Shown in pieces: positions 20,983-35,384 of a stretch of DNA of 64,000 nucleotides. This DNA is from Fimbriimonadaceae bacterium. Lineage in GTDB: Bacteria; Armatimonadota; Fimbriimonadia; Fimbriimonadales; Fimbriimonadaceae. The notes under the pieces are model-generated. The model was not told the origin of the DNA. It made no database searches and worked only from the letters and a program-made list of their open reading frames with translations. Position numbers and translations under genes: made by a program. Within the stretch, counting starts at the first letter, position 1. Each line of letters begins with the position of its first letter. The DNA lies in assembly GCA_020847855.1 (NCBI GenBank), contig JADLBH010000018.1, positions 1 to 64,000 of the forward strand, given 5' to 3'.

Positions 20983-21756
20983 TTACTTTCTTCGGCGGCG
21001 GGTGGCAAGTGCCGCGATGCCGGCGCCCAGCGCGATGATCGTGCCCGGCTCGGGAACCGCGCAGAAGTTCGCACCCTCCAAGCACCCTTGGTCCTTGTAC
21101 TGCCAGTCACACAGATAGCCGTCGCTATAGGCGCTGGAGATACCGACGACCGGCTGCATCCAGAGCCCGAGGCGGGGGCCGAAAGAGGAGCCGGTCCAAG
21201 GATCGGATCCCGGATAGGCCGGGACATGGTTGCGGATGGCGGTGGCGTCAATGTCCATGGTGAACGTGCGGGAGCCGTTCGCCTCCGTGACGACGTTGAG
21301 TGCGTTGATCCAGTTCTGCGTGAGCTTGGAAGAGAGGATCCTGTCCGGGGCTTGCGTTCCCGAGGCGTTAGAGCCATCCTTCCAGCTGTCGTCGTTGTTC
21401 TTGCCGTTGTAGGCATAGACCGTCAGGGCCGGATTGTTGCCGCTGCCGCCGCCCGACCGGTCGAAGTAGAAGGCGGCATATTGGCCACGATCGCCCCGAG
21501 GCTTGGGCCCAGGGGTCACGATGAGCGAGAAGCCGTCCGTCCTCTTGCCGTCCGGGTTCTTGCCAAAGTTGGTCTTCCAAACCATTCGGTTCGTGGCGTC
21601 GTTGTACTCTGCGTGGATCGAGTTGATCCGTCCGCCCATGTTGTTGTAGGCGGTTCCACCGTCCCAATCCCAAACCCAGTTCGTAGCAAGGGCCGACGAG
21701 GCGGCGAGCGCCGCAACGACCCCAGTCAGGAAGCGATTTGTATTCATAGATTGCAC
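20983..21756 (-). CDS. PEP-CTERM exported protein
   Basis: A 257-residue secreted protein. The signal peptide ends at about ATNWVWDWDGG. The middle resembles PEP-CTERM and lectin-like beta-sandwich proteins: many aromatic and Asn residues, such as YNGKNNDDSWKDGSN. The end is VPEPGTIIALGAGIAALATR plus RRRK, a classic PEP-CTERM sorting signal. No enzyme motif is seen. An AGGTG ribosome site lies 6-9 nt upstream of the ATG. It is probably attached to the cell surface or matrix by an exosortase. Confidence 0.8.
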   Translation of the reverse strand: MQSMNTNRFLTGVVAALAASSALATNWVWDWDGGTAYNNMGGRINSIHAEYNDATNRMVWKTNFGKNPDGKRTDGFSLIVTPGPKPRGDRGQYAAFYFDRSGGGSGNNPALTVYAYNGKNNDDSWKDGSNASGTQAPDRILSSKLTQNWINALNVVTEANGSRTFTMDIDATAIRNHVPAYPGSDPWTGSSFGPRLGLWMQPVVGISSAYSDGYLCDWQYKDQGCLEGANFCAVPEPGTIIALGAGIAALATRRRRK

Positions 21757-22005
21757 CTAAATGTATTCGCACCGGGAGAAGGGTCTCCCGATAGCCCTAC
21801 GATTATGGCTTCACCCGGCGTGCCATGAGCCAAAGTCACCAAGAAACCTAGTACTTCTCTTGTGCTCGGGCACAAGGGCCGGGCGTCGAGCGGGCCCTCT
21901 GGCGAATCGGTCGTTTCCACGGTGAGGAAGCGGGGTCGGTCCTTCCGACAATCGGTCTAGGAGCGATCGCACCACGGAGGGCGCAACGTTCCTGAGGCCT
22001 AGATC

Positions 22006-23211
22006 ATGCCAACTTTCGCGTATACGGCCCTGGACGGTGAGGGCCGAACCGTCAAATCCACGCTCGAGGGCGAGAACGAGGCGCTTGTACTCTCCAAGCT
22101 CCGCGAATTGAACCTACAGGTCGTCGAGCTCAAGCAAGCCCGAGCCAAGTCCTCGCTTTCCTTCGGAAAGGCGAAGATGAAGCCGAAGGCTCTCGTCGTC
22201 TTCTCACGCCAGTTCGCGACCATGATTGATGCTGGCATCCCGATCCTTCGATGCCTCGAGATCCTGGGGAACCAGACCAAGGATCTTGCCTTGAAGCCGG
22301 CGATCCTCACAGTGACAACGGACGTCAAAGGAGGTCTCAGCCTGAACGAGGCGATGGCAAAGCACCCTGGCGTCTTCAACAACCTCTATGTGAACATGAT
22401 TCGAGCTGCCGAGCTGGGCGGCATCCTGGACGTGATCCTGGACCGCCTCTCCGGCTTCCTTGAATACGAGGCAGAGATCCGCTCCAAGATCAAGGGCGCG
22501 ATGATGTACCCCGTCCTCGTCCTCTGCTTCTCGGTGCTCATGCTCTTTGCCCTGTTCACGTTCGTTCTGCCCAAGTTCAAGGACATCTTCAAGGGCATGA
22601 ACGTGGAGCTTCCGGCTCTCACCAAGATGCTCTTTGGCATCGGCGACTTCATGCAGGCCTATTGGTGGACGATCATCCTTGCCGGCATCGGCGGGTTCAT
22701 CGGCTTCAAGATGTGGGGCAAGACCCCGAAAGGCCGCTACCAGCTCGATTTCTTCAAGCTCAAGATGCCGATCATCGGCGAGCTTTCCTTGAAGCTGAGC
22801 GTGGCCCGGTTCTGTCGTACCTTTGGAACCTTGATCAACGCAGGTGTACCGATGATGCGGAGCCTCGAGATCGTCGGGGAGACGCTGAACAACGGCCTTC
22901 TCATCCATGCGATTGACGAGACGCGGATGAGTATCCGCGACGGTAACCGATTGAGCGCACCGCTCACCGAATCCGGACTCTTCCCCAGCATGGTCACGCA
23001 AATGATTGACGTGGGCGAGGAGTCGGGTCGGCTTTCGGAGATGTTGGTGAAGGTCGGTGACTTCTACGATAGCGAGGTGGAATCCACGGTCAAAGGACTG
23101 ACCTCGATGATCGAACCCATGCTCATCATCTTCCTCGGTTGCGTCGTAGGCTTCATCGCCGTCTCGGTCATGACCCCGATCTTCTCCATCGTCAACAGCG
23201 TGGACAAGTAG
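22006..23211 (+). CDS. Type II secretion / type IV pilus inner-membrane platform protein (GspF/PilC)
   Basis: A 401-residue protein with the two repeated GspF/PilC domains. The N-terminus YTALDGEGRTVKSTLEGENE and the repeat motifs FSRQFATMIDAGIPILRCLE (residues 65-84) and ARFCRTFGTLINAGVPMMRS (second copy) are typical, and three hydrophobic helices are present. It anchors the assembly ATPase in the inner membrane. No other pilus or secretion gene lies nearby, so the rest of the machine is elsewhere. The 249-nt gap upstream (21757-22005) shows no gene. Confidence 0.92.
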   Translation: MPTFAYTALDGEGRTVKSTLEGENEALVLSKLRELNLQVVELKQARAKSSLSFGKAKMKPKALVVFSRQFATMIDAGIPILRCLEILGNQTKDLALKPAILTVTTDVKGGLSLNEAMAKHPGVFNNLYVNMIRAAELGGILDVILDRLSGFLEYEAEIRSKIKGAMMYPVLVLCFSVLMLFALFTFVLPKFKDIFKGMNVELPALTKMLFGIGDFMQAYWWTIILAGIGGFIGFKMWGKTPKGRYQLDFFKLKMPIIGELSLKLSVARFCRTFGTLINAGVPMMRSLEIVGETLNNGLLIHAIDETRMSIRDGNRLSAPLTESGLFPSMVTQMIDVGEESGRLSEMLVKVGDFYDSEVESTVKGLTSMIEPMLIIFLGCVVGFIAVSVMTPIFSIVNSVDK

Positions 23212-23226
23212 CGGGGTTGACCGCAC

Positions 23227-23250
23227 GCCTCGGCGGCGAGCCGCCGAGGC
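23227..23250 (+). terminator. Hairpin terminator after gspF
   Basis: gcctcggcgg-cgag-ccgccgaggc, a perfect 10-bp stem. A second hairpin (ccctgcg with cgcaggg) follows directly before the sigma-factor gene, so attenuation is possible. Confidence 0.6.
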
Positions 23251-23303
23251 ACCGGCCCCCCTGCGGCCGAAATCGCAGGGACATTGGAACAACGGATTGA
23301 ACC

Positions 23304-24557
23304 ATGTCGGAAGAAGTATCTAACTCCAGGGATGCCGAGGCGATCGTCGCGCAGTATGTCCGCGACCCGCGGCCGGATCTCAAGGACCTCATCATCGTTC
23401 ACTATGCGGGCACGGTCGAGCGGATCGCACGCCGGTTCGCTGGCATCGAGCCCTTGGAGGATCTCGTCCAGGTCGGGTACATCGGGTTGCTGAACGCCCT
23501 CTCGAAGTTCGACCCCGGCGCGAGCGTCAAGTTCGGAACCTACGCGACCCACCTCATCGCTGGGGAGATCAAGCACTATCTGCGCGATCGAACTCAGACG
23601 ATCCGTCAGCCAGCCTGGCTTCAAGAACTGCGGCAGAAGGTGCAAAAGACGGCATCGCAGCTCCACGCCGAGTTGGGCCGACCTCCGACGAGCGAAGAGA
23701 TCGCGCAGCGCTGCGGAGTGACCGAGGACGCAGTCCACGATGCGTTTGCGACCCAAGAACTGATCCGCGTGGCCTCACTCGACTCCTCGGGGCCCGAGAC
23801 CGAGGACGGGGAAGGGGATCGGCTGGACGCCTTGGAATCCGACAGTCCCCACATCAGCGTAGAGGACAGGGTCGTGCTCTTGGACGCAGTGGTCGGCCTG
23901 CGCGAACTGGAGAAGAACGTCGTGACCCTGTTCCACTTCGAGTCTTTGAGTCAGGCCGAGATCGCGTCGCGGCTCTCGATCTCGTGCAACTATGTCTCCC
24001 ACATTCTCCGGCAGTCCCATTCCAAGCTGAGGCAAGCACTCGGCCCGCAAAGGGCCAGCCAGCTCGCGCCTCTCGATGCGGCATCGGACATGGACTCGAC
24101 GGTGGACGAGGCGACTGGGAGCTATACCGAGGCGTACTTGATCGCGAGGCTGACCGAGGAGCTGCACCGATTGTCGAGCCAAGGCGCAACCCTCTCCTTG
24201 ATCACGATCGAGATCAAGGGACTGGAGAACTACGGCAGGTTCTATGGCCCAGGCGGGATCCAGCAGTTGATGGCGGATGCCGCCTCGCACATCCGTTCTG
24301 CGAGCCGGAGCCTGGACATCCAGTGCCGGCTCGGGAAGTGGGGGTTTGCCGTGATCCTGCCGGGGACGGGGGCAGCTTCCAGCGTCGTGCGGAGCCGCAT
24401 CGCTGAGCGCTTCGCGGCATGGGCGAGCCACTCGCCGGACGGATCGGTGGCAGTCTCGGTGGACGTGGGGGTCGTCGTCGCGAACCGGCGGATCAAGACG
24501 GCGGCAGAGCTCATCGAATTGGCGAGGGGATCGGGCGGGAACCAGAGCGCTGCCTAA
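23304..24557 (+). CDS. SigB/SigF-type sigma factor fused to a degenerate GGDEF domain
   Basis: A 417-residue protein. Residues 1 to about 250 are a sigma-70 factor of the SigF/SigB group: region 2 contains LEDLVQVGYIGLLNALSKFD (51-70) and FGTYATHLIAGEIKHYLRD (77-95), region 3 follows with LGRPPTSEEIAQRCGV, and the region 4 HTH is LSQAEIASRLSISCNYVSHI (215-234). After a linker of about 25 residues, residues 275-415 resemble a diguanylate cyclase: the strand LITIEIKGLENYGRFYGP and a C-terminal helix-strand pattern are in place. The signature GGDEF reads GKWGF (344-348), and no RxxD inhibitory site is seen, so it should not make c-di-GMP. It may bind a nucleotide or act in dimer formation. Its anti-sigma factor is not next door. 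Confidence 0.85.
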   Translation: MSEEVSNSRDAEAIVAQYVRDPRPDLKDLIIVHYAGTVERIARRFAGIEPLEDLVQVGYIGLLNALSKFDPGASVKFGTYATHLIAGEIKHYLRDRTQTIRQPAWLQELRQKVQKTASQLHAELGRPPTSEEIAQRCGVTEDAVHDAFATQELIRVASLDSSGPETEDGEGDRLDALESDSPHISVEDRVVLLDAVVGLRELEKNVVTLFHFESLSQAEIASRLSISCNYVSHILRQSHSKLRQALGPQRASQLAPLDAASDMDSTVDEATGSYTEAYLIARLTEELHRLSSQGATLSLITIEIKGLENYGRFYGPGGIQQLMADAASHIRSASRSLDIQCRLGKWGFAVILPGTGAASSVVRSRIAERFAAWASHSPDGSVAVSVDVGVVVANRRIKTAAELIELARGSGGNQSAA

Positions 24558-34598: not shown

Positions 34599-35384
34599 TT
34601 ATGCGACCGTGACGCCGTTGGCGTCCCGCAGCGATTTGCGCAACCGGCCCACGGCTTGGTTATGAAGTTGATAGACCCGGCTCTCGCTCACGCCCAGGAC
34701 GCGGCCGATCTCTTTGAACGTCAAACCCTCGAAATAGTACAGGGCGATGACGAGCCTCTCGCGGTCGGGCAGGATGTCCACTCCGTCGGCGAGCAGCTTC
34801 CGCATCTCTCTGCCCTCGATTTCCTCGCCGGGTGAGGCGTCCGTGTCCACGATCATCTCGATGAACTGGACGTGGTCCTCCCCATCGCTGCGTGCGCCGC
34901 CCACCATGTCGTCCAAGCTGAGGACGGTGGTCCGGGTCACGCGCACTCTGAGTTCCTCGACCTCTTGCACCGTGAGGGCCATGTATTCCGCAACCTCGCG
35001 CGTGTTCGGGGTTTGCCCCGTCTTGTGTTCGAGGGCCTGGGTCGCGCGCTCCATCGCCTTGAGCTTTTCTCGGATGGACCGGGGAACCCAGTCCTCTTCT
35101 CGAAGCGACTCGAGGATCGCTCCCCGAATCAGGGCGATCGCGTACGTCTCAAACTTGACGTCCCGGCTTGGGTCGTATTGGTCCACGCTCTTGATCAGAC
35201 CGACCACGCCCGAGCCCACGAGGTCTTCGCGGTCCAGACCGTTCGGGATGTTGGCCACGAGTCGGCCCGCGGTGATCTTGACGAGGTAGGAGTAGTGGTT
35301 GATGATCTCGTCGCGGGCTCGTCCGTCCTTATAGACCTTGAACTCGATCCAACTCTTCTTCAATTGCTCGGGCGACATTGGCAT
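34599..35384 (-). CDS. Sigma factor of the FliA/WhiG family
   Basis: A 261-residue alternative sigma factor. Region 2: DREDLVGSGVVGLIKSVDQY and FETYAIALIRGAILESLREEDW; region 3: MERATQALEHKTGQTPNTRE; region 4 HTH: LTFKEIGRVLGVSESRVYQL. These match FliA/WhiG throughout. Its role depends on the lineage: flagella in some groups, development in others. No flagellar gene is nearby, so the second is possible. The start (35384) has a GGAAAGGAAG site; a second ATG (35378) is close. Confidence 0.92.
   Translation of the reverse strand: MPMSPEQLKKSWIEFKVYKDGRARDEIINHYSYLVKITAGRLVANIPNGLDREDLVGSGVVGLIKSVDQYDPSRDVKFETYAIALIRGAILESLREEDWVPRSIREKLKAMERATQALEHKTGQTPNTREVAEYMALTVQEVEELRVRVTRTTVLSLDDMVGGARSDGEDHVQFIEMIVDTDASPGEEIEGREMRKLLADGVDILPDRERLVIALYYFEGLTFKEIGRVLGVSESRVYQLHNQAVGRLRKSLRDANGVTVA

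Follow-up and report, generated by a model that had tools for sequence, protein, structure and literature searches.

Second messengers are known to reach sigma factors through separate anti-sigma proteins. The RsiG-(c-di-GMP)-WhiG switch, a sigma/anti-sigma system, has been described in Streptomyces and Rubrobacter, and in Rubrobacter radiotolerans it controls type IV pili (PMC8325347). A second group of relevant proteins comprises receptors such as PopA and PelD, in which a dead GGDEF domain has kept its I-site (PMC10333796; PMC12564702). PopA links c-di-GMP to ClpXP proteolysis. The gene described here, from a Fimbriimonadaceae bacterium (GCA_020847855.1, contig JADLBH010000018.1), encodes a sigma factor fused to a degenerate GGDEF domain. 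The window, which is the whole stretch of DNA that was analysed, comprises positions 1–64,000 of the forward strand of this contig.

The sigma-GGDEF fusion resembles the RsiG-WhiG switch in that c-di-GMP is predicted from the sequence to act on a sigma factor of the FliA/SigB lineage that is linked to type IV pili. In the RsiG-WhiG system, the ligand is bound by a separate coiled-coil anti-sigma with the motif E(X)3S(X)2R(X)3Q(X)3D, whereas the receptor of the fusion would be the GGDEF domain within the sigma polypeptide. The motif has no match in the six frames of the window, and an RsiG-type anti-sigma encoded there was rejected. The fusion shares with PopA and PelD the dead GGDEF signature combined with a retained RxxD motif, but in those proteins the GGDEF domain is coupled to a receiver domain or to GAF/membrane domains, and the output is not a sigma factor. 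The class of dead-GGDEF receptors is already known, and the sigma-factor output is what differs in the fusion. The diguanylate cyclases PleD, WspR, and DgcB have the same fold, and the alignment to PleD identifies all four I-site residues in the fusion; however, the fusion lacks the catalytic and GTP-binding residues and is not expected to have cyclase activity. Regions 2, 3, and 4 are common to the fusion and to sigma factors of the SigB/SigF/SigG and FliA/WhiG types. In contrast to these, the fusion scores below the curated cut-offs, carries an additional C-terminal receptor domain, and has no cognate anti-sigma that could be seen nearby. No description of a sigma-GGDEF fusion, or of a sigma factor that itself binds c-di-GMP, was found in the open-licence literature, including that on Armatimonadetes; since only open-licence papers were covered, this is not proof of absence.

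Domain organization and distribution of the fusion protein

The positions of the fusion gene, its domains, and the neighbouring features are listed in Table 1. All three sigma domains recognized by Pfam in the N-terminal half score above their gathering thresholds, in agreement with the initial annotation, which had placed sigma regions 2, 3, and 4 there. The annotation had also assigned the protein to the SigF/SigB type. The SigB/F/G model TIGR02980 is indeed the best-matching model of NCBIfam (3.1e-50, 171 bits), but its cut-off of 234.35 is not reached, so that the sigma part is a divergent relative of SigB/SigF/SigG and not a formal member. The fusion is predicted to belong to the alternative sigma factors, within the SigB/SigF/FliA lineage, and to have a promoter-directing function.

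Table 1 Features of the sigma-GGDEF fusion locus, with positions in the window
Feature	Position	Strand	Details
pilC-upstream promoter-like element CCGACAAT	21945..21952	+	61 nt before pilC; exact 8-mer recurrent
pilC/gspF, type IV pilus platform protein	22006..23211	+	PF00482 7.5e-62; directly upstream of fusion
pilC-sigma gap	23212..23303	+	two strong stem-loops at about 23227-23250 and 23259-23280; z -2.9 (dinucleotide shuffles)
Sigma-GGDEF fusion gene	23304..24557	+	single ORF of 417 aa, ATG to TAA; orthologues known
Sigma-70 region 2, residues 31-97	23394..23594	+	PF04542 1.6e-15; many invariant residues in 30 orthologues
Sigma-70 region 3, residues 108-170	23625..23813	+	PF04539 2.6e-10
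Sigma-70 region 4, residues 198-244	23895..24035	+	PF04545 3.2e-9; mean pairwise identity of orthologues 75%
Degenerate GGDEF domain, residues 266-407	24099..24524	+	PF00990; AF2 model; Foldseek
R289, equivalent of PleD R313 (fourth I-site residue, from neighbour subunit)	24168..24170	+	R in 61/62
RxxD I-site motif R335-S-L-D338	24306..24317	+	62/62 invariant; five residues before GGDEF-equivalent
GKWGF, degenerate GG[D/E]EF signature, residues 344-348	24333..24347	+	catalytic Glu 5/62, metal Asp 5/62
R365, equivalent of PleD R390 (I-site)	24396..24398	+	59/62
C-terminal Ala-Ala and stop, candidate ClpXP degron	24549..24557	+	AA end in 29/30 genera
WhiG/FliA-type sigma gene, possible partner circuit	34599..35384	-	TIGR02479 237.9 bits, cut-off 189.6

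The C-terminal domain had been described as following a GGDEF pattern, with the reservation that a profile search might not recognize it as GGDEF-like. The profile, PDB sequence, and fold searches all identify it as GGDEF. The Pfam match to PF00990 has an E-value of 5.9e-12 and 46.1 bits against a cut-off of 23.8, and a profile search of PDB sequences with the domain found PleD at 3.4e-24. A model of the domain, which the initial annotation had proposed to build, has a confident GGDEF fold (AF2, pLDDT 92, pTM 0.87). Its Foldseek matches include WspR, c-di-GMP-bound PleD, and c-di-GMP-bound DgcB (TMq up to 0.83, E-value 7.8e-11); 3IGN is a further match of the fold. Both halves fold in the full-length AF2 model, in which the inter-domain arrangement is without confidence (pTM 0.40). 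The best matches to the full-length model include a SigB-RNAP structure, other sigma factors, PleD, and the RsiG-WhiG complex.

Full-length orthologues of the fusion occur in 39 of the 41 genomes of the order, with sequence identities of 39–56% outside the organism's own genome. Among 291 Armatimonadota genomes, profile matches spanning both halves are present in most of the families sampled, many of them outside the order, which provides the survey of phylogenetic spread that had been suggested. The suspicion that the fusion is a local assembly error missing from relatives was not borne out: the full-length orthologues in the order exclude chance or misassembly, and together with the phylum-wide occurrence they rule out an assembly or annotation artefact. 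A SigB-like sigma factor that lacks GGDEF is the best match in the deep families f39–f43 and f45 and in the sampled genomes of f24 and f27. A one-protein scan of contigs, which detects close relatives only, returned named matches from Fimbriimonadaceae and other Armatimonadetes. The sigma part is matched by 303 plasmid records, none of which reaches 80% coverage of the protein. In the published Uphvl-Ar1 genome (CP021423.1, 7941-9271), the GGDEF half is frameshifted, giving products of 353 and 96 aa. Since a close relative is intact, the frameshift is a sequencing error or a recent truncation.

Active site and I-site of the GGDEF domain

The signature of the GGDEF domain is GKWGF, and the metal-binding aspartate of the first strand is replaced by glutamate (E303), as read in the initial annotation. 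Its conclusion that the cyclase is catalytically dead is upheld by an alignment of 62 domains to the canonical cyclases of the same genome, in which the catalytic glutamate and the first metal aspartate are each retained in only 5 domains. The guanine-binding asparagine is rare or absent at its position in the 62 domains, and the distal Lys/Arg region is mostly gone. The window protein has lost the asparagine and aspartate contacts to guanine and is missing the distal Lys/Arg, and therefore does not have the residues of an active cyclase. None of the deep members that were read contains GG[D/E]EF, the nearest variants being GGGTF and EGGTF, and an active cyclase among the deep relatives was rejected.

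In the canonical layout of the I-site, the RxxD motif is located five residues before the GGDEF signature. The local sequence of the fusion is R335-S-L-D338-IQCRL-GKWGF. The statement of the initial annotation that there is no RxxD site is incorrect, because the motif occupies the canonical I-site position. The error matters because RxxD points to c-di-GMP and not to GTP or pppGpp. In PleD, the I-site is formed by R359, D362, and R390 from one subunit and by R313 from its neighbour (PMC12943098; PMC7288161). R289 was assigned as the equivalent of PleD R313 from its distance to the metal-Asp position, which it precedes by 14 residues, as does R313 in PleD. R335 and D338, which are invariant in 30 orthologues, are the sole invariant columns in the 62 aligned domains from about 25 families, and all four I-site columns rank among the most conserved (Table 1). 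Outside this set, two deep members are short of one RxxD residue, and have RxxN and QxxD, respectively. With the GGDEF motif lost and RxxD kept, the domain has the combination that characterizes degenerate GGDEF receptors.

Of the three canonical GGDEF proteins encoded in the same genome, one contains RxxD and two do not, and RxxD is therefore not required by the GGDEF fold. Part of the I-site conservation could nevertheless be due to constraints of the fold or to contacts with proteins. The mean pairwise identity of the GGDEF domain is 43%, versus about 74% for sigma regions 2 and 4. The alignment column of residue 292 contains arginine in 29 of the 32 domains added beyond the first set and in none of the 30 order-level orthologues; this arginine may be an extra ligand contact that was lost in the lineage of the window. 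The proposal of a built-in nucleotide-sensing or dimerisation module gains strength from these comparisons beyond what the initial annotation knew, because the predicted c-di-GMP I-site is intact.

Genomic context of the fusion gene

The pilC gene lies directly 5' of the fusion on the same strand in 70 of 70 order-level loci, among which some genomes are counted twice, and in 21 of 39 deeper loci. The initial annotation had mentioned neither this linkage nor the Ala-Ala end of the protein nor the occurrence of the fusion across the phylum. The sigma gene comes last in the deep operons: one has the order secretin, pilB with MshEN, pilT, pilT, pilC, sigma, and another the order pilB, pilT, pilC, sigma. 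The cognate pilC of fusion carriers is 67–73% identical. Where the fusion is missing, the cognate pilC is gone too, and the remaining pilC paralogues have identities of about 43% or less. Since the cognate pilC and the fusion are absent together, the two genes seem to behave as one unit in inheritance and loss. A gene for a PEP-CTERM protein (20983-21756, minus strand) is located upstream of pilC.

The gap between pilC and the sigma gene contains two stem-loops without a T-run, and matches no known RNA family. Strong structure (z<-2) was found in 22 of 30 orthologous gaps, compared to 12 of 34 control gaps. The stem-loops possibly reduce the expression of the sigma gene relative to pilC.

The promoter-like element CCGACAAT recurs as an exact 8-mer in 22 of 48 distinct pilC upstream regions of the order, usually 45–70 nt before the start codon. 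Promoters of the flagellar type have the -10 element GCCGATAA and the -35 element TAAA (PMC8325347). CCGACAAT resembles the -10 element of such FliA/WhiG promoters, and would suit the WhiG-type sigma factor encoded 10 kb away, or autoregulation. Enrichment of CCGACAAT-like elements at other pilus genes is not above chance. The copies of the CCGANAAT element before pilD, pilB, and an HDOD gene are likewise at about the chance level, and a regulon is therefore not claimed.

The WhiG/FliA-type sigma gene that had been noticed 10 kb from the fusion scores above the cut-off of TIGR02479. Almost all genomes of the order have a single copy of it, which is located within about 3–25 kb of the fusion in many members of the family. 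The suggestion that two sigma circuits may meet here is weakly supported: the gene proximity and the resemblance of CCGACAAT speak for it, but the WhiG-type gene is also kept where the fusion is missing. Its product scores 190 bits, as compared to 238 bits, in genomes from which the fusion and all GGDEF proteins have been lost.

The genome encodes, besides the three canonical GGDEF proteins, four HD-GYP proteins and six MshEN hits; no EAL domain was found in it. Every fusion-bearing genome of the order has at least one further GGDEF protein. Among the genomes without a clear other GGDEF protein (G111, G112, G119, G128, G106, and G040 (marginal only)), the fusion is absent in six of six. This co-absence represents about two independent losses, in genera g20 and g40, and some of the genomes are incomplete. 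Five g20 genomes have kept diguanylate cyclases and have no fusion. The co-absence is consistent with c-di-GMP sensing, but is not decisive. One canonical GGDEF protein (L075, 907-2094, minus strand) apparently combines a CBS-type sensor with GGDEF, as judged by eye, and its gene adjoins a gene resembling a proteasomal AAA ATPase of the Mpa/ARC type.

Predicted c-di-GMP control and its alternatives

The preferred interpretation, with a probability of roughly 0.6, is that the sigma factor contains its own receptor for c-di-GMP and is tied to type IV pili, the GGDEF domain having lost its diguanylate cyclase chemistry and kept the I-site. Cyclic di-GMP would bind to the I-site, and (c-di-GMP)2 would probably cross-link two GGDEF domains. 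Such cross-linking is the most economical mechanism, because the residue contributed by the neighbouring subunit, R289, is also kept. The cross-linking would alter the ability of the sigma regions to engage core RNA polymerase. By analogy to RsiG-WhiG, silencing of the sigma factor by the ligand, in the manner of a built-in anti-sigma, is slightly favoured over activation. The output of the sigma factor probably includes type IV pilus functions, as the conserved pairing with pilC would suggest.

The fusion protein ends with two alanines, and a C-terminal Ala-Ala is a classical ClpXP degron (PMC8119881). The mean pairwise identity of the eight residues before the alanines is 9.5%, versus 97% for the alanine pair itself. 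All four alanine codons and all three stop codons are used at this position across the genera, and selection therefore acts on the protein. An Ala-Ala end is found in 0 of 215 neighbouring ORFs and in 0 of 53 further ORFs of the window. The organism's own tmRNA tag is ANNNFALAA, the tags of its relatives end with YAYAA, FAYAA, or YALAA, and ClpX is present in 25 of 25 genomes tested. Because position -3 of the fusion tail is rarely leucine and mostly K/Q/R, the tail is not an exact copy of ssrA. The match to the end of the organism's own tmRNA tag suggests that the Ala-Ala tail is a candidate ClpXP degron. Its recognition by ClpXP would keep the protein scarce, and the fusion protein is probably short-lived. 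In the deep families, the Ala-Ala end is present in 16 of 38 members and absent in 22.

The same observations on the tail could be explained if the switch acted mainly by proteolysis. Whether or not c-di-GMP takes part, the GGDEF domain would then gate the presentation of the tail to ClpXP, similar to PopA helping to deliver CtrA to ClpXP in Caulobacter, and the ligand would set the amount of the sigma factor and not its activity. The conservation of the alanine pair over a variable tail, the use of all alanine and stop codons, the ALAA end of the tmRNA tag, and the general presence of ClpX fit this explanation. However, deep families without the Ala-Ala end still keep RxxD, and the I-site therefore has a role independent of the degron; this explanation is considered unlikely.

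Somewhat less likely still is that the GGDEF domain serves only for protein interaction or dimerisation, for example by docking to PilC, so that pilus assembly controls the sigma factor, no nucleotide is sensed, and the I-site residues are kept for contacts. GGDEF proteins often work through local protein contacts, and the sigma gene is paired with pilC throughout the order, the cognate pair being missing jointly from genomes that still have pilC paralogues. A pure interaction surface, however, is not expected to keep exactly the four c-di-GMP contacts across about 25 families while the rest of the domain diverges.

It is improbable that the GGDEF domain binds another guanine nucleotide, such as GTP, ppGpp, or pppGpp. 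The ability to bind GTP may survive in dead GGDEF domains, and a recent structure of PleD contains (p)ppGpp besides c-di-GMP, according to the titles of entries 9g85 and 9g86; but the fusion lacks the active-site residues for GTP (Asn, Asp, Lys, and Arg), and the residues that are conserved are those of the I-site. That the C-terminal half is a residual relic without current function, as its faster evolution relative to the sigma part and its frameshift in the Uphvl-Ar1 genome might indicate, is the least credible explanation given the invariant I-site, the full length retained in most of the phylum, and the conserved C-terminal alanines.

The c-di-GMP-gated sigma factor can be extended to a complete scheme, in which a single protein is dimerised by (c-di-GMP)2 through its dead GGDEF domains, the pilC-sigma pair couples the state of the type IV pilus with the expression of pilus genes, and the lifetime of the protein is determined by ClpXP. 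This combined scheme is tentative and rather less secure than the receptor function on its own; the same holds for the joint reading that such a c-di-GMP-gated fusion may be ancient in the phylum Armatimonadota.

No study of such regulation in Armatimonadota was found in the literature searched, and the sigma-GGDEF fusion offers a handle on regulation in this phylum. If the proposed function is correct, c-di-GMP would act on promoter choice by the shortest route, through a receptor that is part of the sigma polypeptide. The fusion would then represent an independent invention, beside RsiG-WhiG of Rubrobacter, of c-di-GMP control over a sigma factor tied to type IV pili.
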